Assembly: GCA_026225115.1 (NCBI GenBank)
Contig: JAMFSE010000060.1
Coordinates: 1-37,981 of the forward strand
From: Rhodovastum atsumiense
GTDB taxonomy: Bacteria; Pseudomonadota; Alphaproteobacteria; Acetobacterales; Acetobacteraceae
DNA length: 37,981 bases
Direction: 5' to 3'
The notes under the pieces were generated by a model, which saw only the letters and a program-made list of their open reading frames with translations, made no database searches and was not told where the DNA came from. Every line of letters begins with the position of its first letter. Within the stretch, counting starts at the first letter, position 1. Made by a program: the position numbers and the translations under genes. Below, in pieces: positions 15,645 to 37,981 of this stretch.

Positions 15645-17531
15645 ATGAGCAACCAAGGGCATGGCGACACCAAATCGCGCCTCCGCGTCAGTGCGCTGGT
15701 CGGTGTTCTAGGCGTCGTCTACGGCGACATCGGCACCAGCCCGCTTTACGCACTCCAGGCGTCGCTCGGATATTTCCAGAAATCCGGCCTTAAATATGCC
15801 GACATCTTCGGCATCCTGTCCCTGATCTTCTGGGCGCTCATCATCGTCGTCACCCTGAAATACGTCACCTTTATCATGCGCGCCGATAACAATGGCGAAG
15901 GCGGCACGCTCTCGCTCATGGCACTCGCCAGCCGCGTCGCCCGCAGCGACCGCACCAAGGGCGCGCTCGGCATCATCGGCATCGTTGGCGCCGGCCTGTT
16001 TTTTGGCGACGGCGTCATCACCCCGGCGATTTCCATCCTCTCGGCGGTCGAAGGCATCACCGTTATTTCGCCGCACCTCAGCAACCTCGTGCTGCCGATC
16101 GCTCTGGTCGTCATCGCCGTGCTGTTCCTGGTGCAGCGCCACGGCACCAACGCCGTCGGCCGCGCCTTCGGACCGATCATGGTCATCTGGTTCCTGACAC
16201 TCGGCCTGCTTGGCTTGGCGCAGATCATCCAGCACCCTTTCGTCCTGGAAGCGCTTAGTCCGTATTACAGCATCGCCTTCATGATCCGGCACGACCGCAT
16301 CGCCTTTATCGCACTGGGCGCCGTGGTGCTGGCCGTCACCGGCGCCGAAGCCCTGTACGCCGATATGAGCCATTTCGGCCGCCGCCCGATCCGCGCAAGC
16401 TGGATCTTTTTCGTTCTCCCCTGCCTGGTGCTGAACTATTTTGGCCAGGGTGCGCTCGTCATCGCCAACCCCTCCACCGTCGACAACCCCTTCTACAAGC
16501 TGGCGCCGCATGTCCTGCGGGTTCCCATGATCATCCTGGCGACCATGGCGACCGTCATCGCCAGCCAGGCCGTCATCACCGGCGCCTTTTCGGTCGCCCG
16601 CATGTGCATCCAGCTCGGCCTGCTGCCGCGCATGGAAGTCCGGCACACCAGCGAACAGGAACAAGGCCAGATCTACGTGCCACAGATCAACGCCATCCTC
16701 GCCGTCGGCGTCGTCCTGCTCGTTCTCACATTCCGTTCCAGCAATGCCCTCGCCTCGGCCTATGGCATCGCCGTCACCGGCACGTTCCTTTGCGACAATA
16801 CATTGGCGGCCTTCGTCTACCGCCGCCAATTCGGCTGGCCCCGCTGGGCCACTTTCGCGCTCTTCGGCGCCTTCGGCATTATCGATTTCGCATTCTTCTC
16901 GGCAAATTCGCTGAAGATCTTCGAAGGCGGCTGGGTGCCGCTGGCCATCGGCTTCACCATCATCCTGATCATGACGACCTGGCGGCGCGGCCGCAATCTG
17001 GTCGTCGCCCGCTGGCAACAGGACAGTCTGCCGCTGGCCTCCTTCCTCTCCCGCCTGCCGCAATCGCGCATCATCCGGGTGCCCGGCACCGCGGTGTTCC
17101 TGACCAGCAATCTCGAATTCGTCCCCAACGCCTTGCTGCACAACCTCAAACACAACAAAGTGCTGCACGAACAGGTCTTCTTCGTGCACGTCCGCACCCT
17201 CGCCTTCCCTCAGGCCAGCCCGCAGGAACGCGCCACCGCCGAGCAAGTGGCGCCCGGCATCTTCAAAGTGACACTTTGCTACGGCTTCATGGAAAGCCCG
17301 AACGTGCCGCGCGCGCTGGAGAGCCTGGCGACCCACGGCGTGGAATTCAAACCCATGCAAACCAGCTATTTCCTGGGCCGCGAAACCGTGGTCACCGCCT
17401 CGCTGCCGAAACTGCGCTTCATCCGCCGCTGGATGTTCCTGTTCATGGCGCGCAACGCGGTCTCCGCCACCGAATTCTTCCGCATCCCCAGCGATCGCGT
17501 CGTCGAACTCGGCGTCCGCATCGCCATCTAG
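15645..17531 (+). CDS. kup: Kup-type potassium uptake protein
   Basis: A 628-residue KUP/HAK/KT transporter: proton-coupled K+ import across the inner membrane. The family signature [15 protein letters not shown] sits in the first helix (about residues 21-35). [19 protein letters not shown] follows in helix 3, then [13 protein letters not shown], and the C-terminal cytoplasmic domain ends in [15 protein letters not shown], typical of the family. About 12 hydrophobic helices occupy residues 10-455. Kup works well at low external pH, fitting an acidophile (inference). The TMEM175-like channel gene follows after only 12 bases, so the two are probably co-transcribed. Confidence 0.95.
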
Positions 17532-17543
17532 CCCCCGCGCGCG

Positions 17544-18170
17544 ATGGGGAAATACAACCAATTCGCCGGCCAAAACCTCGATCGCCTCGCCGCCATAAGC
17601 GACGGCATATTCGCCGTCGGCATGACCCTGCTGGTCCTCGATTTGCACACCCCGGCCGCCACCCTCATCCACAGCGATTCCGACCTTTGGCGAAACCTCG
17701 CCGAACTCGCCCCGAACCTCGCCGTCTACGTCATGAGCTTCCTCACCTTGGGAATCTTCTGGGTCGGCCGGCAAACGCAGCTCAATCTGCTAATCCGCGC
17801 CGACCGCAACCTCGCCTGGCTGCATCTGGGCTTTCTGTTCTGTGTCACGCTGATGCCCTTCTCGACCCAGCTGATCGGCAGCTTCATCCAATACCGCGCC
17901 GCTCTGCTGATCTACTGGGCCAACATCCTGCTGCTGGGCATCGGTCTGCTCGGCGCCTGGCGCTATGCCTTGCACGCCAAACTGGTCCCCGAAGACCTGC
18001 CCGTCGTCACCCATAAGGGCGTTGAGCGCCGCATCATCACCGCCCAGGCCCTCTACGCCGCCGGCGCCGCCCTATGCATCATCAACACATACTGGAGCCT
18101 CGGCTTCATCGTCCTGGTCCAACTAAACTACGTCATCGCCCCGAAGATCGGCTTCCTGCGAAAACTTTAA
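17544..18170 (+). CDS. TMEM175-family (DUF1211) potassium channel-like protein
   Basis: A 208-residue protein with six predicted membrane helices. The first carries RLAAISDGIFAVGMTLLVL (about 14-32), which matches the family's FSDxxFAIxxTLLxL pore motif except that the first position is Ile instead of Phe. Bacterial members have one such repeat per chain and form tetrameric K+-permeable channels. The gene begins 12 bases after kup on the same strand, which suggests a shared K+ role. It could also be an unrelated small membrane protein of the DUF1211 group, but the motif is strong. An intergenic repeat follows immediately. Confidence 0.85.
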   Translation: MGKYNQFAGQNLDRLAAISDGIFAVGMTLLVLDLHTPAATLIHSDSDLWRNLAELAPNLAVYVMSFLTLGIFWVGRQTQLNLLIRADRNLAWLHLGFLFCVTLMPFSTQLIGSFIQYRAALLIYWANILLLGIGLLGAWRYALHAKLVPEDLPVVTHKGVERRIITAQALYAAGAALCIINTYWSLGFIVLVQLNYVIAPKIGFLRKL

Positions 18171-22501: not shown

Positions 22502-22535
22502 AAAACGGGCGTCACCGCAACGTGACGCCCGTTTT
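22502..22535 (+). terminator. Intrinsic terminator after the glucan synthase gene
   Basis: A perfect 10-base stem (CGGGCGTCAC at 22506-22515 paired with GTGACGCCCG at 22522-22531) closes a 6-base loop. It is followed by TTTTCT and preceded by five A residues, so it can stop transcription in either direction. It separates the glucan synthase from the CmcJ-like gene. Confidence 0.85.
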
Positions 22536-22573
22536 CTATGTCTTACCCAAAACAAACCGTTTCGCGCCGTAAA

Positions 22574-22601
22574 TTGACTCCCGGGCAGAATCAAATACGC
22601 T
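22574..22601 (+). promoter_or_regulatory. Candidate sigma-70-type promoter for the CmcJ/NvfI-like gene
   Basis: TTGACT and TACGCT are spaced by 16 bases, ending 39 bases before the ATG at 22641. They lie after the terminator at 22502-22535, so the gene needs its own promoter about here. The assignment rests on sequence resemblance only. Confidence 0.35.
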
Positions 22602-22640
22602 CGCCGGCAATAAACATCATAAACTGGGAAGGAGACTGTG

Positions 22641-23486
22641 ATGGGAGTTCCTCCGCACAGCATTCGCGCCAAAATCCCCTATCTGCGCAGCGATCTCGAC
22701 ACCTTGTTCGTCGACTATTCCGCCCGCATCCTGGGCGAGGAAACCCTCGACCGCCAGCCGCTCACCATCCGCAACGGCCGCGAAGCGGCGATCCCGCCAT
22801 CCCTGGAACAGGAGGGCTTCGAACTAACCCATTGCCACAGCCGCGTCGTCCAAACCCGCCTGACGGAGCTAACCGCGGAGCGCACCCCGCTCAAAACCTC
22901 ACCGGCGATGAAGGCCTATTGGGACGAAACAACCCCCTTCATCCAATGCCTGACCGGCGCCCGCGCGGTCTACCCCATCAACGCCTCGGCCGTGCGATTC
23001 AGCACCCAAAACACCCGCCAGAAGATGATGACCCCCGCCGGCTGGGTGCATCTCGATTACGATCCCGAGGAGGCCGAACAACAACTCCGCGAAACGCTGG
23101 AGCTGCACGCCGTCACCCCCGCCCCCTACAGCCGCCACGTCCTGTACCAAAGCTGGCGCGTCCTCTCCGACCCGCCGCAGGATTTCCCGCTCGCAATCTG
23201 CGACGGCCGCACCGTCCGCGGCGAAGACATCGTCCCCATCGAATACCACATGAAAACCGAGGCCCGCGAAGTCACCTACCGCTCGCGCGGCAGCCGCTAC
23301 AGCCCCCGTCACCAATGGTGGTATTTCCCCGACATGACACCGGACGAAATGATCATCTTCAAAGGCTTCGACTCCCGCCACCCCGACCAATCCAAAACCC
23401 TCCACGTCGCCTTCCACGACGAAACCGCGGAGCACCCCATCCCCCGCTCCAGCATAGAAACCCGCTACTTCGCGCTGTTCGATTAA
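22641..23486 (+). CDS. CmcJ/NvfI-family oxidoreductase (putative Fe/2-oxoglutarate-type oxygenase)
   Basis: A 281-residue protein of the CmcJ/NvfI family. Features seen: WVHLDYDPEEA with an HxD pair (H137, D139) as a possible metal site, YQSWRVLSDPPQDFPLAICD, HQWWYFPDMTPDEMIIFKGFDS, a downstream His in LHVAFHDE, and the closing RSSIETRYFALFD. Family members include the cephamycin 7-alpha-hydroxylation component CmcJ and fungal oxygenases (NvfI, AsaB, GA4 desaturase-like), so a hydroxylation or desaturation is likely; the substrate is unknown. A strong ribosome-binding site (GGAAGGAG) lies 6 bases before the ATG at 22641; an adjacent GTG at 22638 is less likely. It stands alone between a terminator and a repeat and looks like a single acquired gene. 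Confidence 0.82.
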   Translation: MGVPPHSIRAKIPYLRSDLDTLFVDYSARILGEETLDRQPLTIRNGREAAIPPSLEQEGFELTHCHSRVVQTRLTELTAERTPLKTSPAMKAYWDETTPFIQCLTGARAVYPINASAVRFSTQNTRQKMMTPAGWVHLDYDPEEAEQQLRETLELHAVTPAPYSRHVLYQSWRVLSDPPQDFPLAICDGRTVRGEDIVPIEYHMKTEAREVTYRSRGSRYSPRHQWWYFPDMTPDEMIIFKGFDSRHPDQSKTLHVAFHDETAEHPIPRSSIETRYFALFD

Positions 23487-23498
23487 TCCGCTATCGCC

Positions 23499-23533
23499 GT
23501 AGGATGGGTAAGCGCAGCGTCACCCATCGCTAA
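23499..23533. repeat. Dispersed GTAGGATGGGT...ACCCATC palindromic repeat
   Basis: The arms GATGGGT (23503-23509) and ACCCATC (23522-23528) flank a central AAGCGCAGCG-like segment. Elements of this form (GGATGGGT-AAGCG...-ACCCATC) are common between genes in many bacteria. It lies 12 bases after the CmcJ-like gene and is the only feature in the 97-base gap before the helicase gene. Confidence 0.65.
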
Positions 23534-23583
23534 TTCATTTCACTTCCATTGCATTCAGAACCGTACCCTGCAACTGTCGACCC

Positions 23584-25590
23584 GTGAATGAATCTCCGGT
23601 CGCGCCTCAAATAACCCCGCAAGCCTGGTGGTCAGGAACCCTGGCCGACTTCAACAGCAACACAGATTCCAGCATCATCGGACGCCTGGCATTCCGGGCG
23701 ATCGAAACCCACCCGCTGAACCACGATCAGCAATTGCGCGCCTGGCACCAGCAAATCGCAATTCTACGTTCTGCACTCCACAGCCTGCCAAACCACTGGC
23801 GGCTACTCTTCGAATACCCTTTGCTTCGCCTCGGACGCCGGCTAGACGCCGTTTTAATCTCCGACCGCGCAATCTTTCTCTTCGAATTCAAAATCGGCTC
23901 GACCGTCTTCGACCGGGCCGCACGCAACCAAACCGAAGACTACGCGCTCGACCTACAGGATTTCCATAGCGAAAGCCGAACCGCAACAATCGTACCGATA
24001 CTCGTCGCAAGCGAAGCACATGCGCCCGAACCCATCTGGCCACTCTACTGGCACGGCGTCACCGATCCGATCTTTTTAGCTTCGGCCAAGTCACTGCCCA
24101 ACCTCCTAAACCTACTCGTCTCAGCTGTTCCTCACCGAAACATCAAAATCGAGAAATGGGAGCACGCACCGTATCGCCCGGTGCCAACCATCATCGAAGC
24201 AGCGACAATGCTTTACCGAAAACATGGTGTCGCGGAGATCGCCGCCGCCCGCGCCGACATCAGCAACCTGACCCGCACAACCAGCGTCATCATGCAGGCC
24301 GTTGCAGATGCAAAAAACAATGGCCAATACGTCATCGTATTCGTCACCGGCATTCCCGGCGCCGGCAAAACCCTCTGCGGATTGAACGCCGTCTTCGGCG
24401 CCGATACCGGCGCCGCCTTTCTCACCGGCAACCTACCTTTAGTCCACGTGCTCCGCGAGGCTCTAGCCCGCGATGCCGCATCCCTGCCCGGCGGATCAAT
24501 CCGCCAGGCCAGGCAGAAAACCGAGAGCGCTGTCCAAGGTCTGACCGGATTTGTCCGCGACAACGTCGACCGCCTTGACCCCCCGCACGAGCACGTCGTG
24601 GTTTTCGACGAAGCACAACGCGCCTGGGACGCCGCCTACGGCGCACGAAAATTCCAATTAAACGATAGCGAAGCCGCGCTGTTCCTGGAAATCATGGGAA
24701 AGCACAAGGATTACGCCGTAGTGATCGCACTCGTCGGCAACGGCCAGGAAATAAACACCGGCGAAGCCGGCCTCGGCGAATGGGGCCGCGCATTGGCGAG
24801 CCGCCCGGAATGGCAAATCCACGCGGCGCCCTCAGTGCTGACAACCATTGAGCCAAGACAGCGCCTCTTCACCGCAATCCCCGCCGGCATCACGATCAAT
24901 CCCGCATTGCATCTCGACATTCCGGTCAGGTCCATTCGCACATCTTCCGGCGCGCCATGGGTGGATGCCGTGCTGCGCGGAAACTTGGCCGAAGCCAAAG
25001 CCCACGCGGAAGACGGCGTCCCGTTCATCGTCACAAGATCGCTGCCGCTAATGCGCACAGCGTTACGCAGCATGGCGCGCGGTGAACGCCGCGCCGGCTT
25101 GGTGTGCAGCACCGGCGCCAGGCGATTGGTGGCTGACGGCATCTGGCCCGACTTTCCGCATCTAGACCAGGACGCTATCGCAAACTGGTTTCTAAACAAC
25201 TGGCCAGACGTGCGCGCCTCCGACGCGCTTGAAATCCCGGCCACGCAATTTGCCTGCCAGGGCCTGGAACTAGATCTCGTGGGCCTCTGCTGGGGCGGCG
25301 ATCTGCTGTGGAACGGCGCTTGGCAAATCCGCAAATTCGTCGGCACAAAATGGCAAAACCCAAAGCGTCAGGACGCAAAGGATTTTCGTCTTAACACTTA
25401 TCGCGTCCTACTTACCCGCGCCCGCTATGAGACGATCATCTGGCTACCAAAAGGCGACATCGCCGACCGCACCCGCGAACCAGAATTTTTTGATAGAACC
25501 GCCGATTTTCTGATCGAATGCGGCGCCACATTATTGCAAGACCTGCCCACCGAACCACCACTATCGGAACTCGAACCCCAATTACTTTAG
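23584..25590 (+). CDS. Predicted nuclease-helicase (PD-(D/E)xK-like domain plus DUF2075/SLFN-g3 helicase)
   Basis: A 668-residue protein. The N-terminal part has a pattern fitting a PD-(D/E)xK nuclease: E77, then RRLDAVLISD with D88, then LFEFKIG with E101 and K103. From about residue 245 there is a superfamily I-type helicase of the DUF2075 (PF09848) group. Its motifs are Walker A GIPGAGKT (256-263), Walker B VVFDEAQRAWD (DEAQ 342-345), VGNGQEINTGEAG (384-396), QGLELD (559-564) and YRVLLTRAR (606-614). Proteins like this often occur in defence islands, and a nuclease joined to a helicase fits a role against foreign DNA; this is inference. The start is GTG at 23584 with no good ribosome-binding site. 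The gene is less GC-rich than its neighbours and stands alone, which suggests transfer. Confidence 0.85.
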   Translation: MNESPVAPQITPQAWWSGTLADFNSNTDSSIIGRLAFRAIETHPLNHDQQLRAWHQQIAILRSALHSLPNHWRLLFEYPLLRLGRRLDAVLISDRAIFLFEFKIGSTVFDRAARNQTEDYALDLQDFHSESRTATIVPILVASEAHAPEPIWPLYWHGVTDPIFLASAKSLPNLLNLLVSAVPHRNIKIEKWEHAPYRPVPTIIEAATMLYRKHGVAEIAAARADISNLTRTTSVIMQAVADAKNNGQYVIVFVTGIPGAGKTLCGLNAVFGADTGAAFLTGNLPLVHVLREALARDAASLPGGSIRQARQKTESAVQGLTGFVRDNVDRLDPPHEHVVVFDEAQRAWDAAYGARKFQLNDSEAALFLEIMGKHKDYAVVIALVGNGQEINTGEAGLGEWGRALASRPEWQIHAAPSVLTTIEPRQRLFTAIPAGITINPALHLDIPVRSIRTSSGAPWVDAVLRGNLAEAKAHAEDGVPFIVTRSLPLMRTALRSMARGERRAGLVCSTGARRLVADGIWPDFPHLDQDAIANWFLNNWPDVRASDALEIPATQFACQGLELDLVGLCWGGDLLWNGAWQIRKFVGTKWQNPKRQDAKDFRLNTYRVLLTRARYETIIWLPKGDIADRTREPEFFDRTADFLIECGATLLQDLPTEPPLSELEPQLL

Positions 25591-26655
25591 CAACCCAAAC
25601 ACTACCACGCTCTCCAAATTCTCCGAATACGGAAATTGATCAATCGGCGTGGCTGCCAGCAACCCATACCCAGCCTTCTTCAGCGCATAGGCATCCATCG
25701 CCAGCGCCTTCGGGTTACAACTCACGTAAATCACCCGCGGCACCCCGGCGGCCACCAAAAACCGCATCTGATTGGCCGCCCCCGCATAAGGCGGGTCCAG
25801 CACCACCGCTGCACAGCCCTTCAAATCAGCCGCCTGCAACGGCCGGCGCGCCAAATCCCGCAGCTCCAGTTTAATCCGCCCCGCCAGATTACTCCGGCGT
25901 ATGGCAATCTCCAGCGCCGCAACCGCGTCCGCCGACCCCTCATACGCTTCCACCCGCGCCGCTTGCACCAACGCAAAGGTCAGCGTCCCAATCCCGGCGT
26001 AAAGCTCGGCAATCCGCGATTTCGCATTCAGCTTCGGCAGCCCGGCCAGCACCGCCGCAATAATCGCGGCCTCCCCTTGGCCGCTCGCCTGCATGAACGC
26101 CCCCGGCGCCGGCTCAACCGCAACACCCGACAGCGTGATCACCGGCTGATCAAGAATAATGATAGGCTCAGCCTCAGATTTTTCCTTCGCCTGGCTGATC
26201 CGCAGCACCTGATGCGCCCGCGCAAACGCAATGATGTTCCGGCGATCCGCCGTGGTCACCTCGGCATCGGTCCGGATCAGAACATCCGCGCCGCGATCAA
26301 GATAATTGATAATCACCGAGCCGGTTCGCCGAAACGCCTCCAACCTGCGCAGCAACCCCCGCAAATGCGGCAGCAAGGACAGAATGCGCGGATCCACCAG
26401 CACGCATTCCAGCATATCCACCGCCTCGGCACTGCGCGCTTTGTGCAGCCCCAGCGTGATCACGGCGCCATCGCGCACCGCCGCCAGATCAACATGCCGG
26501 CGTGTCCGCAGCGGAATTTCCACTAACGGTGCCACCGCCGGATTCTCATACCCAGCCCGGATCAGCGCCTCCCGCAAGACCCCCGATTTATCGACCGCGG
26601 CGCGATCCTCAAACGCACAACCGCCGCAGATGCCGTAATGCTGGCAATGGCTCAT
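25582..26655 (-). CDS. RlmD/TrmA-class RNA (uracil-5-) methyltransferase
   Basis: A 357-residue SAM-dependent methyltransferase likely to form 5-methyluridine in 23S rRNA. The N-terminus carries the [4Fe-4S] motif CQHYGICGGC (C4, C10, C13) with a likely fourth ligand C84. SAM motif I is ELYAGIGTLTFAL, the DPPY motif is present, the catalytic Cys is C313 in VSCNP, and the final Glu is in FPYSENLESVV. There is no N-terminal TRAM domain, so it is shorter than E. coli RlmD. The frame is open upstream to 26736, but the ATG at 26655 lies 1 base after the upstream gene's stop and starts just before the cluster motif. Its 3' end overlaps the helicase gene on the other strand by 9 bases. Confidence 0.88.
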   Translation of the reverse strand: MSHCQHYGICGGCAFEDRAAVDKSGVLREALIRAGYENPAVAPLVEIPLRTRRHVDLAAVRDGAVITLGLHKARSAEAVDMLECVLVDPRILSLLPHLRGLLRRLEAFRRTGSVIINYLDRGADVLIRTDAEVTTADRRNIIAFARAHQVLRISQAKEKSEAEPIIILDQPVITLSGVAVEPAPGAFMQASGQGEAAIIAAVLAGLPKLNAKSRIAELYAGIGTLTFALVQAARVEAYEGSADAVAALEIAIRRSNLAGRIKLELRDLARRPLQAADLKGCAAVVLDPPYAGAANQMRFLVAAGVPRVIYVSCNPKALAMDAYALKKAGYGLLAATPIDQFPYSENLESVVVFGLLK

Positions 26656-26656
26656 C

Positions 26657-28333
26657 TCAATCCGGCAATTCAATGGGCGCAATCCGATCGAACAAATCCC
26701 CGGGCCCAGGATTTTCCGCAGCACTCTTGCCGCCAAAATGATGCATAATCCCCCAAACCGCGTTCAGCGCGGTCTGCACGGCGCCTTCAGCCCAGGCCGG
26801 AGTCCAGGAGATGTCATCCCCCGCCAAAAAAATCCCTCGTTCCGCAGGCGGCAGCGATTCCTGCATGAACTGGCAATACATCCGCCGATTATACCGGTAA
26901 TGCCCGGGCAGCGCGCCTTTAAACGCCCCTAGGAACCCCGGATCATTTTCCCAGGACACGGTAATCGGATCACCGATGATATGCTTGGCCAGATCAAGAT
27001 CCGGGTAAATCGCCTTCAACGCATTCAGCATCAAATTCACGCGCTGATCCGCGGATAACGGCAGCACCTTCATCGCATCCGACATCCAGGAATAGGACAG
27101 GCAGATAACCCCAGGCCGATCCGCGCCATTATCAAACAAATAGGTCCCCCGCGTCAGCCGGTCCGAAAGCGTGGTGCTCATCCGATACCGGTTGGTTATC
27201 GGATCCCGCTCCCGCCAAAACGGCCGATCCACCATCACGAAGGTTTTCGAAGACTGCATATAACGCGTCCGATCCAGCGCCATCCACAGCTTTTGCGAAA
27301 ACAAATCCTCGCCGGTGGAAATCGACGTCGTCAGCAGCCAGGACTGGCAGGTCGCCAGCACCGCCGGATAAAGCCGCGTATCCCCCCACCGGTCGGTCAC
27401 CGCAATCCGATCGGTCGAGGCCCGCGCCAGCCGCACCACCCCGGGCCGGGGCGCGCCCCCATGCAGCCCATTCAGCGACGTCCCCTTCGGCCAATGCGCG
27501 ATTTGTCCGGGAGCGTCAGCCCACAACCGCCGCGGCAATTGCTCAACGCCGCCCATAATCAGCTGCTGGTCCTCATCAAGCCCGGTCGCAACAACGCGCA
27601 AAATCTCCAGCATCGAGTTGGGAAAATCACTATCCCATCCACCCGTACCAAACCCGACTTGCCCGAAAACCTCCCGATGCCGGAACGAGAGTTTTTGAAA
27701 AGCCGGCGCACTTGCAACAAAATCATAAAACGTGCGCTCATCCCAAAGCGGCACCAGCCGATTCCATATCTGCTTCAAAACCGCCGTATCGCGTTCACGG
27801 ATCGCACGCTGCAGCGCCCCAAAATCAGCCCCGGCCTCCAGTGCCGCGGCCCATGCCTGCTGCACCTCGCGCAGCAACGGCGGCAGATCGTCCGGCGTTT
27901 CGATATAGGAAATCTCGCCCTCCAGATCGATCATCGTGCTGGGCGAGGCCGGGTCAAGCGGATTAGGAAAAGGCGTCCGCTCCAACCCGGTCAAATCGGC
28001 ATAATGATAGAAACTGGTTGAAGATTTTGGAAACCGCATGCCGCCAAGCTCGGCGACGATCCCCTCAGCGCCCTGAAACACCTGGCTTCGCAACCGCCCG
28101 CCAAGCCGGCCCTGCTCATAAACCACCGGCTTCAGCCCAAGCTTCATCAGCTCATAGGCAGCCACAATCCCGGAAAGGCCGCCGCCGATAACGGCAACCT
28201 CCGCGCCATGATTGAGCGCAGGAATACTGCCAAGCCCGGCCTTATGATTCAGCCAGTCATCATAGGCAAAAGGGAAATCGGGCCCGAAGCCCGTAATCGG
28301 TTTTGCCGCCGCAGCGCTCCGGCGTGTACTCAG
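26657..28333 (-). CDS. davB: Flavin amine oxidase, probable L-lysine 2-monooxygenase (CTG start)
   Basis: A flavoenzyme of the tryptophan/lysine 2-monooxygenase group. Read from CTG at 28333 it has 558 residues, near the roughly 560 of Pseudomonas DavB. It opens with [18 protein letters not shown] and the FAD motif [17 protein letters not shown]. Later come [55 protein letters not shown] and the C-terminal [17 protein letters not shown]. The first segment and the [14 protein letters not shown] end match my memory of DavB rather than tryptophan oxygenases. DavB converts lysine to 5-aminovaleramide. No ATG, GTG or TTG lies in frame between the upstream stop at 28384 and the FAD motif; the CTG overlaps the gcdH stop as CTGA. 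The first conventional start (GTG 28165) would remove the FAD motif. Confidence 0.82.
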
Positions 28334-29526
28334 AACGCGGAAAGCCCAGTAATGCCCCGTCCCAAAATCAACGCATGCACGTCATGCGCACCTTCATAGG
28401 TATTCACGGTCTCAAGGTTCATCATATGGCGGATCACATGATACTCATCGGCAATCCCATTGCCGCCATGCATATCGCGGGCAAGCCGCGCAATATCCAG
28501 CGCCTTGCCGCAGGAATTGCGTTTACAAAGCGAAATCATCTCCAGCGCCGCCTCGCCTTTGTCCATCAACCGCCCAAGCTGCAAAACAGATTGCAGCCCC
28601 AGCGTAATCTCGGTCAGCATGTCGGCCAGCTTCTTCTGCACCAGCTGCGTATTGGCCAGCGGCCGCCCGAACATTTTTCGGTCCAGCGTATAGCTGCGCG
28701 CTGCCGACAGACAGAATTCCGCCGCCCCCAAAGCGCCCCAGGCAATCCCGTAGCGCGCATTATTAAGGCATGAAAACGGCCCCTTCAGCCCCTTCACCTT
28801 CGGGAGCATATTCTCCGCCGGCACGAACACATCCTGCATCATGATCATGCCGGTAATCGAAGCCCGCAGCGAGAACTTGCCCTCAATCTTCGGCGTCTCC
28901 AGCCCGGCAAACCCGCGTTCCAGAATAAACCCGCGGATATCCCCGGCATCATCCTTCGCCCAGACCACCAGCGTATCGGCAATCGGCGAATTGGTAATCC
29001 AGGTTTTCGCCCCATTCAGCAAAAACCCGCCATCCACCACCTTTGCCCGGCTGCGCATGGAAGCCGGATCAGACCCCGCATCCGGCTCCGTCAGCCCAAA
29101 ACAGCCGACATGCTCGCCGCTCCGCAATTTTGGCAGATATTTATCCTTCTGCGCCTCGGAGCCAAACGCCCAGATCGGATACATCACCAGCGAGGATTGC
29201 ACCGAAAACGCGCTCCGGTAGCCGCTGTCCACCCGCTCGATCTCGCGCGAAATCAGCCCGTAGGAAACATAGGAAATATCCGCGCAGCCATGGCTATCCA
29301 GCGTCGCGCCAAGAAAACCAAGCTCGCCCATTTCAGACAAAATCGCGCGATCATAATGCTCATCGCGAAACGCCATCAGCACCCGCGGCTGCAATTTCTC
29401 CTGCGCATATTGATGCGCGACATCCCTTATTGCCCGCTCGTCTTCCGTCAGCTGGGAATCAAACCGCAGCGCATCGTCCCAGGCAAAGCCAGCGAACTTA
29501 CCCTTAAGACGCGCCGCCTCGCTCAC
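28330..29526 (-). CDS. gcdH: Glutaryl-CoA dehydrogenase
   Basis: A 398-residue acyl-CoA dehydrogenase. The catalytic base E378 lies in [19 protein letters not shown], a sequence pattern typical of glutaryl-CoA dehydrogenase. [16 protein letters not shown] carries the arginine that holds the substrate's free carboxylate. FAD-binding segments [15 protein letters not shown] and [15 protein letters not shown] are normal. The enzyme oxidises and decarboxylates glutaryl-CoA to crotonyl-CoA, the last special step of lysine and tryptophan breakdown. The start is GTG at 29526, overlapping the helicase stop (GTGA). Its own stop overlaps the CTG of the DavB-like gene. Together they mark both ends of the 5-aminovalerate route. 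Confidence 0.92.
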
Positions 29527-31331
29527 GCCGCGATTTCGCCGCCGTTGTCTTCATCCGGCAGATCGGCATCGCTATCATTGAAAACCTCCAGAGCTTCCAC
29601 CGCAGCGGGCCGCTTGCGGATCAACATGAAAGCCGGAACATCGGCGCCAAATCCAACCACGCTCGGCCCGTTATCCTGGTTCCGATCCGGGTAGCGATTG
29701 TCGCGGCGCCGATACTCCTCGCGCGCCGGCGCTTCCGCCGATTCATCGCGCCGTTTGTCATTACGCGGCGCACGCGTTGCATCGTCGCGCGGAAAACGTG
29801 TTGCATCGTCGCGAACAGCGCGTGAGGATTCTTCACGTGAAACACGCGAAGTATCTACCTGAACAACCGGCTTAGCATCATCCCGCGGCGCCCGCTCAGC
29901 ATTCCGGCGCGAACCACGCTCACCCGAAGCTTTCGCACGCGCAGGCCTCGGCTCGTCCTCTTTCGGTGCCGCCTCAGTCTTGGCGACTTTGGCCGGTGCC
30001 TTAGCCGCCGGCTTCGAACGCCCCCGGCCACGGCCACGCCGGCCATCATCTTCCGCCCATTCCACCGCATCCAAACCAGGGATCTCGATGCGCGGAATCG
30101 GCGCCGCAACCAGCTTCTCAATCGCCTCCACGGCCAACCGGTCTTCCGGGCAAGCGATGGTAAACGCCTTCCCATCCCGCCCAGCGCGGCCCGTGCGGCC
30201 AATCCGGTGCACATAATCCTCGGCATGATGCGGCACGTCGAAATTGAACACATGGCTCAACCCGCCGATATCGATCCCGCGGGCCGCCACATCCGAGCAC
30301 ACCAGCAGCCGGATCTCATTCGCCTTGAATTTCTCCAGCGTCGAGAACCGGACAGACTGCGCCAGATCGCCATGCAAGGCGCCGGCGTCAAAATTATGCT
30401 TGATCAGCGATTTCAGCAGAATATCCACATCGCGCTTCCGATTGCAGAAGATCAGCGCATTCTGCACATCTTCAGACCGGATCAACCGCCGCAGCGCCTC
30501 GCGCTTGTCATGCTGCGCCACCAGCGCCAGTCCGGCCGTAATGGTCGTCGCAACCGAAGCTGGTTTGGATACCGTGATCTCTTTCGGATTTTGCAAAAAT
30601 GCATCCGCCAGCCGGCGAATTTCCGGCGCCATGGTGGCCGAGAAAAACAGCGTCTGCCGAGTCCGCGGCAGCATCGCCACAATACGCTCGATATCCGGGA
30701 TGAATCCCATATCCAGCATGCGGTCCGCCTCGTCGATCACCAGCACCCGCACATCGGTCAGCAACAATCCGCCACGCTCGAACAGATCGATCAACCGGCC
30801 GGGCGTCGCAATCAAAACATCCACACCCTTGGCGAGCGTCTCCTTCTGATCCGACATGCTCTCGCCGCCAATCAGCAACGCATGATTGAGTTTCAAATAT
30901 TTCCCATAGGCGACGAAATTCTCCGCCACCTGCAACGCAAGTTCCCGCGTCGGCTCCAAAATCAACGACCGCGGCATCCGCGCCCGCGACCGCGAGCCGG
31001 AAAGAATATCCAACAGCGGCAGCGTAAACCCGGCGGTCTTGCCGGTCCCGGTCTGCGCGCAGCCAAGCACGTCGCGGCCCATCAGCACGGTGGGGATCGC
31101 CTGCGCCTGAATCGGCGTCGGCCGCAAATAACCCTTGTCATGCAGCGCCCGCAAAATCGGCTCCGACAACCCAAGCGGCCCGAAACCATCCACATCCTCA
31201 GCCGACTCCAACTCCTCATCGCCTTCGGACGACCCCATCACAGCCGCCTCTTCCGCTTCCGGGAATGCGTCTGTCGGGTCGGAATCGACCTGTGCGGGAA
31301 AAACCGCTTCGTCGTGCTGGCTATCGGACAA
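29523..31331 (-). CDS. DEAD-box RNA helicase (RhlE-like) with long basic tail
   Basis: A 602-residue ATP-dependent RNA helicase. After an acidic N-terminus (1-48) come the Q motif region ([14 protein letters not shown]), AQTGTGKT (92-99), PTRELA, TPGR, DEAD (200-203), SAT (231-233), ARGID and [11 protein letters not shown]. Residues 425-602 are a disordered, Arg/Asp/Ala-rich tail with repeats of the form RDDATR, a likely RNA-binding extension. Such helicases help ribosome assembly and RNA decay, often in the cold. The start appears to be TTG at 31331 with only a weak AGG 8 bases upstream; the next ATG is at residue 32 and would still leave the helicase core intact. It heads a four-gene run with overlapping junctions. 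Confidence 0.92.
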
Positions 31332-36594: not shown

Positions 36595-37981
36595 CTACTG
36601 AACTTCCTCGGGCAATTTCTCGCCGCTCGGATCGTCGCCTTCGGATTCCGGCCGCGGCAACGCGGGAAGCGCTGCCTCGGTAACATCGAAAGCCAGCTTG
36701 CCGTCTTTCAGCGTGACCTTGACCGCGCCGCCTTTCACCAGCTTGCCGAACAGCAGTTCCTCGGCGAGCGGCTTCTTGATCAGCTCCTGGATCACCCGGG
36801 CCAGCGGCCGCGCGCCATAAAGCGGCTCGTACCCGCGCTCGGCCAGGAACTCCTTGGCGGCCGAGGACAGCTCGATCGTCACATTCCGATCCGCCAGCTG
36901 AGCTTCCAGCTGCATCACGAATTTTTCCACCACCTGGGCGACGATTTCGGTCGTCAACGGCGCGAAGGGGATGACCGCGTCCAGCCGGTTCCGGAATTCC
37001 GGCGTGAACATCCGCTTGATCGCTTCCTGATCCTCACCGACCCTTACCTCACGGCCAAACCCGATTCCGGCTTTCGCCATGTCGGAAGCGCCCGCATTGG
37101 TCGTCATGATCAGAATGACATTACGGAAATCGATCTTCTTGCCGTTGTGATCGGTAAGCTTGCCGTGATCCATGATCTGCAACAAAATATTGAACAGATC
37201 CGGATGCGCTTTTTCGATCTCATCCAGCAACAACACGCAATGCGGATGCTGGTCGATGGCGTCGGTCAACAACCCGCCCTGATCAAACCCGACATAGCCC
37301 GGCGGCGCGCCAATCAGGCGCGAAACCGAATGCCGTTCCATATATTCACTCATGTCAAACCGCGTCAGCTCAATCCCAAGCGTCGCGGCAAGCTGCCGCG
37401 CAACCTCGGTCTTACCAACGCCGGTCGGACCGGAGAACAGATAATTCCCAATCGGCTTTTCGGAATCCCGCAGGCCGGCCCTTGAGAGTTTGATGGCAGC
37501 CGAGAGCGCCTCGATCGCCTCATTCTGCCCGAACACCATCGACTTCAGATCGCGCTCCAGCGTCCGCAGCACTTCCTTGTCGTCGGCGGAAACCGATTTG
37601 GGCGGAATGCGCGCAATCTTGGAGACCATCTCCTCGACATCCTTGAGTGTCACAGTTTTCCGCCGCTTGCCTTCGGGTTGCAGCATCCGCGCCGCTCCGG
37701 CCTCATCGATCACGTCGATCGCCTTATCCGGAAGCTTGCGGTCGTTGATATATTTCGCCGCCAACTCCACCGCACCGCGAATCGCATCATCGGTGTAGCG
37801 CACCTTGTGATGCTTCTCATACGCGCCCTTCAGGCCGCGCAGAATTTTAATCGCATCCTCGACCGACGGCTCATTGACGTCGATCTTCTGGAAACGCCGC
37901 ACCAGCGCGCGATCTTTCTCGAAGTAGTTGCGGAACTCCTTATAGGTGGTGGAACCGATGCAACGCAGGCTGCCCTGCGCC
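36595..37981 (-). CDS. clpA: ATP-dependent Clp protease ATP-binding subunit ClpA, C-terminal part (cut by window edge)
   Basis: The frame is open from the right edge with no start inside the window (the first residues read GAQGSLRCIGSTTYKEFRNY), so this is the C-terminal 461 residues or so. It contains the end of the first AAA+ module (RDRALVRRFQKIDV-like arginine-finger region) and the whole second module. That module has Walker A SGPTGVGKT, GAPPGYVGFDQGG, Walker B LLLDEIEKAH, TTNAG, FTPEFRNRLD, and GYEPLYGARPLARVIQ (sensor 2). There is no ClpB-type middle domain between the modules, which fits ClpA. ClpA unfolds substrates for ClpP. The acidic Pro/Glu-rich last 20 residues follow the second module. 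Confidence 0.95.
   Translation of the reverse strand, partial: AQGSLRCIGSTTYKEFRNYFEKDRALVRRFQKIDVNEPSVEDAIKILRGLKGAYEKHHKVRYTDDAIRGAVELAAKYINDRKLPDKAIDVIDEAGAARMLQPEGKRRKTVTLKDVEEMVSKIARIPPKSVSADDKEVLRTLERDLKSMVFGQNEAIEALSAAIKLSRAGLRDSEKPIGNYLFSGPTGVGKTEVARQLAATLGIELTRFDMSEYMERHSVSRLIGAPPGYVGFDQGGLLTDAIDQHPHCVLLLDEIEKAHPDLFNILLQIMDHGKLTDHNGKKIDFRNVILIMTTNAGASDMAKAGIGFGREVRVGEDQEAIKRMFTPEFRNRLDAVIPFAPLTTEIVAQVVEKFVMQLEAQLADRNVTIELSSAAKEFLAERGYEPLYGARPLARVIQELIKKPLAEELLFGKLVKGGAVKVTLKDGKLAFDVTEAALPALPRPESEGDDPSGEKLPEEVQ

Follow-up and report, generated by a model that had tools for sequence, protein, structure and literature searches.

A conserved davB-like gene of Rhodovastum atsumiense, lying on the minus strand directly behind gcdH, lacks an ordinary start codon ahead of its FAD-binding motif, and the best candidate in its place is a CTG that overlaps the gcdH stop codon. 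The window—the whole stretch of DNA analysed, 37,981 nucleotides of contig JAMFSE010000060.1—carries this gene in a tight minus-strand row (deaD, gcdH, davB and a methyltransferase gene). Weak reinitiation at the CTG is the single mechanism that we favour, with a probability somewhat below even; loss of the start codon and a fault in the sequence, taken together, are nearly or about as likely. The features concerned are as follows.

29523–31331, minus strand: DEAD-box helicase gene (deaD-like; Pfam), upstream in the same operon-like row
28330–29526, minus strand: gcdH-like acyl-CoA dehydrogenase gene (Pfam acyl-CoA dehydrogenase domains), its GTG start overlapping the deaD stop
26657–28333, minus strand: gene for a davB-like L-lysine monooxygenase/oxidase, of 558 aa plus stop if started at CTG 28333 (matches to 3WE0 and Pfam)
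28358–28360, minus strand: ACG, rival near-cognate within gcdH (in-frame codon scan)
28331–28333, minus strand: CTG, putative start, forming CTGA with the gcdH stop
28307–28309, minus strand: GCG, aligned with the ATG that starts MTKPIT in the closest orthologue, L031/G024 (codon alignment; GGAG 7 nt upstream)
28295–28297, minus strand: ATT, rival near-cognate that would cut into the conserved PIT (in-frame codon scan)
28292–28294, minus strand: ACG, rival near-cognate right after the ATT (in-frame codon scan)
28163–28165, minus strand: GTG, first canonical start, right after IGGGLSGI (502-aa product without the FAD-binding start)
25582–26655, minus strand: RNA (uracil-5-)methyltransferase-like gene, downstream, its ATG one base past the davB stop

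The names gcdH and deaD are those of the first-pass annotation; the Pfam matches are to acyl-CoA dehydrogenase and DEAD-box helicase domains.

The davB-like frame is open for 574 codons (28381–26660), from a TGA at 28384–28382 to the stop at 26659–26657. The first-pass annotation was right that no ATG, GTG or TTG precedes the FAD motif: a scan from the upstream TGA found no canonical codon in frame before GTG 28165, which sits directly 3' of the codons for IGGGLSGI. It was also right that CTG 28333 overlaps the gcdH TGA (28332–28330) as CTGA and that reading from this codon gives 558 residues. Its statement that ATT is the only other near-cognate was wrong: the frame holds ACG 28360, CTG 28333, ATT 28297 and ACG 28294. 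As far as the reading frame and the aligned homologues can tell, the CTG is the best of these four, fitting in length and place, because no other stands just ahead of a conserved P[IV]T segment with a leader of the usual length; the arguments originally offered for it proved weaker than claimed. The other genes of the window are ordinary in this respect, a canonical start lying upstream of the first Pfam domain stretch in 23 of the 23 other window ORFs with a Pfam match (24 window ORFs scanned, counting families over the Pfam cut-off; one ORF, at about 22526–23533, matched none).

The proposed identity of the product as a DavB-like flavoenzyme is supported by two matches: Pfam Amino_oxidase (135.2 bits, residues 69–545 of the 574-codon frame) and the Pseudomonas sp. 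AIU 813 L-amino acid oxidase/monooxygenase, 3WE0, which is the closest relative in sequence to have a solved structure (about 940 bits along almost the entire protein). A homologue from Pseudomonas otitidis (L034) is 70% identical to the window protein. The GxGxxG FAD motif, IGGGLSG, occupies residues 49–55 of the CTG form. Translation from GTG 28165, the first canonical start in frame and the one that the mechanical ORF list picks, would yield a 502-aa protein without the first Rossmann strand and without this motif, since the GTG follows IGGGLSGI; the loss of the FAD site had been foreseen correctly. Such a start would be wrong for an active enzyme, whether or not the CTG is used. The codons upstream of the GTG are moreover conserved at the protein level (dN/dS 0.129, see below), and we consider translation from GTG 28165 scarcely credible.

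Two sets of comparisons bear on whether the gene is under constraint. Firstly, dN/dS against L031, the copy in Acidocella sp. MAG RAIPG19, comes to 0.107 for the whole gene and to 0.129 for the 46 aligned codons that separate KPIT from GTG 28165, both being rough values with synonymous sites near saturation. Secondly, in an alignment of 79 sequences (the window plus 78), 151 columns do not vary among the other 78, and the window protein departs from none of them; at the 97% level it departs from 2 of 187. Some repeats of one gene among the 78 (for example L002 and L138) slightly inflate this apparent invariance. Where the window copy and L031 differ, the window is derived at 5 positions and L031 at 12 under an 80% consensus, and at 15 and 29, respectively, under a 50% consensus; that the window copy is derived less often than L031 speaks against decay. 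On these comparisons the davB-like gene is real and constrained, with no sign of relaxed selection, and conservation begins upstream of GTG 28165. Any loss of the start would thus have to be recent or not silencing.

Left out of the alignment as partial or duplicate were L001, L003, L005, L006, L030, L073, L094, L096, L114, L118, L119, L122 and L139. A further 48 loci were left out as having no 450-codon frame with GPDF; these were mostly weak matches or gcdH loci, and the true homologues L080, L081, L084, L092 and L106 were lost with them. In L094 and L096, from two MAGs, the davB homologues match in two pieces in different frames, and are thus frameshifted or misassembled.

The homologues start in the ordinary way. 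Each of the 73 homologous loci that differ from one another across 120 bases around the GPDF segment has a canonical in-frame start within 60 codons upstream of that segment (the count required at least 6 codons before GPDF). It is an ATG in 72 of them, the nearest lying 7–25 codons before GPDF; the remaining locus, L060, has a GTG only, 12 codons before. The starts of L080, L081, L084 and L106 were left out of this count, and L092 and L030 have an ATG. The test is a loose one, since a canonical start occurs by chance in 28 of 54 control junctions. The CTG form has 16 residues before GPDF, inside the 7–25 of the homologues, so that the leader length is usual; the ATG of the closest relative, however, aligns not to the CTG but to GCG 28309.

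The same alignment weighs against initiation at ATT 28297 (or ACG 28294), from which the protein would begin (M)TGF-GPDF or (M)GF-GPDF. In 74 of 78 loci (a set that includes repeats) an [IV]T pair precedes GPDF at the same distance, making a start after it less likely. A start at the ATT removes the conserved P-[IV], a start at either codon would give a shorter leader before GPDF than in any of the homologues counted, and no homologue's nearest ATG lies fewer than 7 codons from GPDF (with the required minimum of 6). The ATT does not overlap the gcdH stop, and the efficiency of ATT is put at about 0.3% that of ATG (quoted in PMC10666635). In its favour are a pairing with the anti-Shine–Dalgarno sequence of about −5.0 kcal/mol and a product that could fold: in a predicted model of the CTG form (mean pLDDT 74.5, 15 sequences), residues 1–9 have pLDDT below 50 and confident order sets in at about residue 20. 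Taken together, these points leave initiation at the ATT very improbable.

Both same-genus relatives with davB behind gcdH—L031/G024, and G004 on contig 202—start MTKPIT with an ATG, and a CTG start is common to no relative found. The copy in Acidocella sp. MAG RAIPG19 (L031, the same as G024 over the stretch compared) is 82–83% identical to the window copy and shares its neighbours, gcdH and the methyltransferase gene. It differs from the window copy in its ATG start and in a 68-nt spacer after gcdH: the L031 ATG lies 68 nt past the gcdH stop, whereas the aligned window codon, GCG 28309, lies only 20 nt past. Where L031 reads ATG ACC at its start, the window reads GCG GCA, a difference of several bases. 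At the other end of davB, the gap to the methyltransferase gene is 1 nt in the window versus about 42 nt in L031 (measured to the TTG where the match begins). In L030 (G004 contig 202) the gcdH–davB spacer exceeds 200 nt and contains two N flanked on both sides by a repeated GCATGCGCTGGCATGACGGGGTG motif, which suggests a repeat element or a scaffold join.

These differences raise the possibility of a start-lost allele, in which the gene lost its ATG, perhaps as the spacer shrank, and is now untranslated or barely translated; a second davB would make the loss tolerable, and the CTGA would be a coincidence. In line with this reading, a GCG stands where the closest relative has its ATG, with a GGAG still 7 nt upstream: the best Shine–Dalgarno-like site of the junction is placed for the lost ATG position, not for the CTG. 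Predicted anti-Shine–Dalgarno pairing is −5.8 kcal/mol at the lost ATG site and −2.4 kcal/mol at the CTG, the latter being weak and within the spread of nine other window starts (+0.2 to −12.6). The second davB (58% identical) lies on contig 144 of the same genome (L138, 5948–8385), where its GTG overlaps the stop of a carbon-nitrogen hydrolase (davA-like) gene as GTGA and the next codon is an ATG. Going by gene content and order, the contig 144 genes are an ordinary davAB-like pair, and given this second davB beside a davA-like gene the window copy may be dispensable. Furthermore, davB stands behind gcdH in 3 of 38 genus genomes (its own, G024 and G004; several genomes are incomplete, and the G004 contig ends within davB), which indicates that the genus can do without this copy. 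Against a lost start stand the constraint described above—no other lesion in 1.67 kb, no invariant column changed, dN/dS of about 0.1—by which the loss would be recent, and an in-frame CTGA at the stop that has a background of 2 in 54 only. On its own, we take start loss to be a serious possibility, though not a likely one.

How much weight the CTGA can bear was gauged from control junctions: 18 gcdH 3' ends from the genus, each read in three frames (54 junctions). The 18 ends come from 20 junction-query loci minus the window and G024, and one of them (L122, from G004) has davB. No canonical start is present in the open frame of 26 of the 54, so that its bare absence from such a stretch is ordinary; what is unusual is the conserved N-terminus that follows the start-less stretch. 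A near-cognate codon occurs in 34 of the controls, a CTG in 11, and an in-frame CTGA at the stop in 2. The CTGA overlap is therefore modest evidence, with a coincidence rate of roughly 4%. It is weakened by the fact that the conserved C-terminal Phe of GcdH (TTC) followed by TGA itself spells CTGA; TTCTGA ends gcdH without a davB behind it in three of the 18 genus loci (L124, L131 and L137). The first-pass annotation had further pointed to NTGA junctions elsewhere in the window. The GTGA at deaD/gcdH and the ATGA ending copA are indeed there, but the gene after copA was not identified as cueR.

An alternative is that the draft is wrong between gcdH and KPIT, and that a true canonical start exists. 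The assembly is a draft of 149 contigs, and a single sequence covers the junction: a 701-base junction query against 38 genus genomes found no other genome of this species. The best other match to that query is 73% over 659 query bases (G024); partial matches cover 240–370 bases, mostly of the gcdH part, at up to 83%, and a few cover 25–28 bases at 93–96%. On the other side, no internal stop occurs in 21 of 21 acyl-CoA-dehydrogenase-type matches or in either davB copy, and the aligned start codons differ at several bases rather than one. A sequence or assembly fault is improbable.

At the junction, davB is read in the −1 frame with respect to gcdH, as would suit a frameshift at the gcdH end that fuses GcdH to DavB. 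Slippery sites for −1 frameshifting follow the heptamer pattern X XXY YYZ. The junction, GCG TTC TGA, contains no such heptamer; the predicted fold of the junction RNA (101 nt) is no better than that of shuffled sequences (z 0.81); and spacers part gcdH from davB in the two further genomes where these genes are neighbours, L031 and G004. A fusion is the least probable of the explanations weighed here.

CTG starts in bacteria and stop–start coupling are both already known. Published CTG strengths disagree: CUG is quoted as initiating at about 0.86% of AUG (PMC11497404), while an E. coli reporter study places CTG among codons at 31–74% of ATG strength (PMC6925171). Among annotated genes, 0.024% are given a CUG start (a figure quoted by PMC11497404 and PMC11983097). 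The misplaced start of the ORF list has a close parallel in the rep genes of FIB replicons in F-like plasmids, which are described as starting at a CTG, supported by N-terminal analysis and mutation, and as often being misannotated at a GTG 14 codons downstream (PMC11983097). The FIB rep CTG has a good ribosome-binding site and experimental proof, whereas the window CTG is a candidate without a clear Shine–Dalgarno sequence. Two reports urge caution: in the alphaproteobacterium Caulobacter, a CUG seen by toeprint is reported as not used in vivo (PMC8443254), and an AUA in a stop-overlapping junction is reported not to have served as a start in E. coli (PMC9955659). As to coupling, described termination–reinitiation pairs with a stop–start overlap of −4 nt have the same NTGA geometry as gcdH/davB (PMC10666635). 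Those pairs use canonical starts; the window CTG falls outside the usual set.

The ATG used by the closest relatives (MTKPIT) is absent from this sequence, and the gcdH–davB spacer up to that position is shorter (20 versus 68 nt). In the mechanism that we favour, ribosomes that have terminated at the gcdH TGA would move one base backwards and start anew, with fMet-tRNA, on the overlapping CTG 28333; the 558-aa protein would result, probably at a low level. The stronger version—that the enzyme is made only by stop–start reinitiation at a CUG without a clear Shine–Dalgarno sequence, the stop overlap relaxing the choice of start and coupling rescuing an ATG-less gene—is offered tentatively, being rather more apt to fail than to hold. 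If the CTG is used, the gene would be a rare case of chromosomal CUG initiation, in which termination–reinitiation tolerates a start codon that is poor by itself, and one where starting at the first canonical codon cuts the FAD motif off a conserved enzyme. Otherwise, the locus would be a snapshot of a freshly start-lost duplicate.

Ten positions were checked against 3WE0. R102, W235, D238, Y416, W418, F473 and W516 are the same here and in 73 of 73 homologues (aligned proteins distinct over the last 500 residues), and Q258 and A515 are also the same in the window protein. Asp238, described as a lysine pocket residue in L-AAO/MOG (PMC5832979), corresponds to D236 here and is Asp in all 73 distinct homologues. 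The remaining position, Cys254 of 3WE0, is Leu252 in the window protein (codon 27578–27580, minus strand). L031 also has Leu at this site; Cys is found in 51 of the 73 homologues and Ala in the contig 144 paralogue. A C254I mutant is described as having no detectable monooxygenase activity and fivefold oxidase activity (PMC5832979), so that the window copy, with Leu at this position, may act chiefly as a lysine oxidase rather than as a true DavB monooxygenase. Yet Cys254 is maybe not needed for a DavB role, since the paralogue beside the davA-like gene has Ala. Homology to DavB is not in doubt; to judge by residue identities, monooxygenase activity is.

The surroundings of the window copy also differ from those of DavB-type systems, which have a davA amidase gene as neighbour: no CN_hydrolase domain was found by Pfam among the 24 window ORFs scanned. 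Two annotated plasmid regions have davB adjoining a carbon-nitrogen hydrolase gene and have no bearing on the CTG; in total, 197 plasmid records contain a match, the best at 67%. A 4-aminobutyrate-type aminotransferase (TIGR00700, over cut-off) is encoded on contig 64 of the same genome as the window. In 4 of 18 genus gcdH loci (G006, G010, G018 and G032) gcdH is followed directly by the methyltransferase gene, without davB, indicating that davB was either inserted in one lineage or lost from others. The gap between the two genes in these davB-less loci (L120, L121, L124 and L136) is 2 nt in three of the four.

Elsewhere in the window, three observations were made. Firstly, at positions 15645–18170 (plus strand), a gene for a K+ transporter (K_trans) precedes one whose product carries a TMEM175 potassium-channel domain. 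Secondly, the region 22538–25590 (plus strand) holds the ORF without a Pfam match (about 22526–23533) and, after it, a gene whose product has approximately 270 unmatched N-terminal residues and a Schlafen group 3 helicase domain (PF09848). Thirdly, a Clp-type AAA gene at about 36595–37980 (minus strand) lies in a frame that is open to the window end (37981 bases), and its 5' end may be cut.
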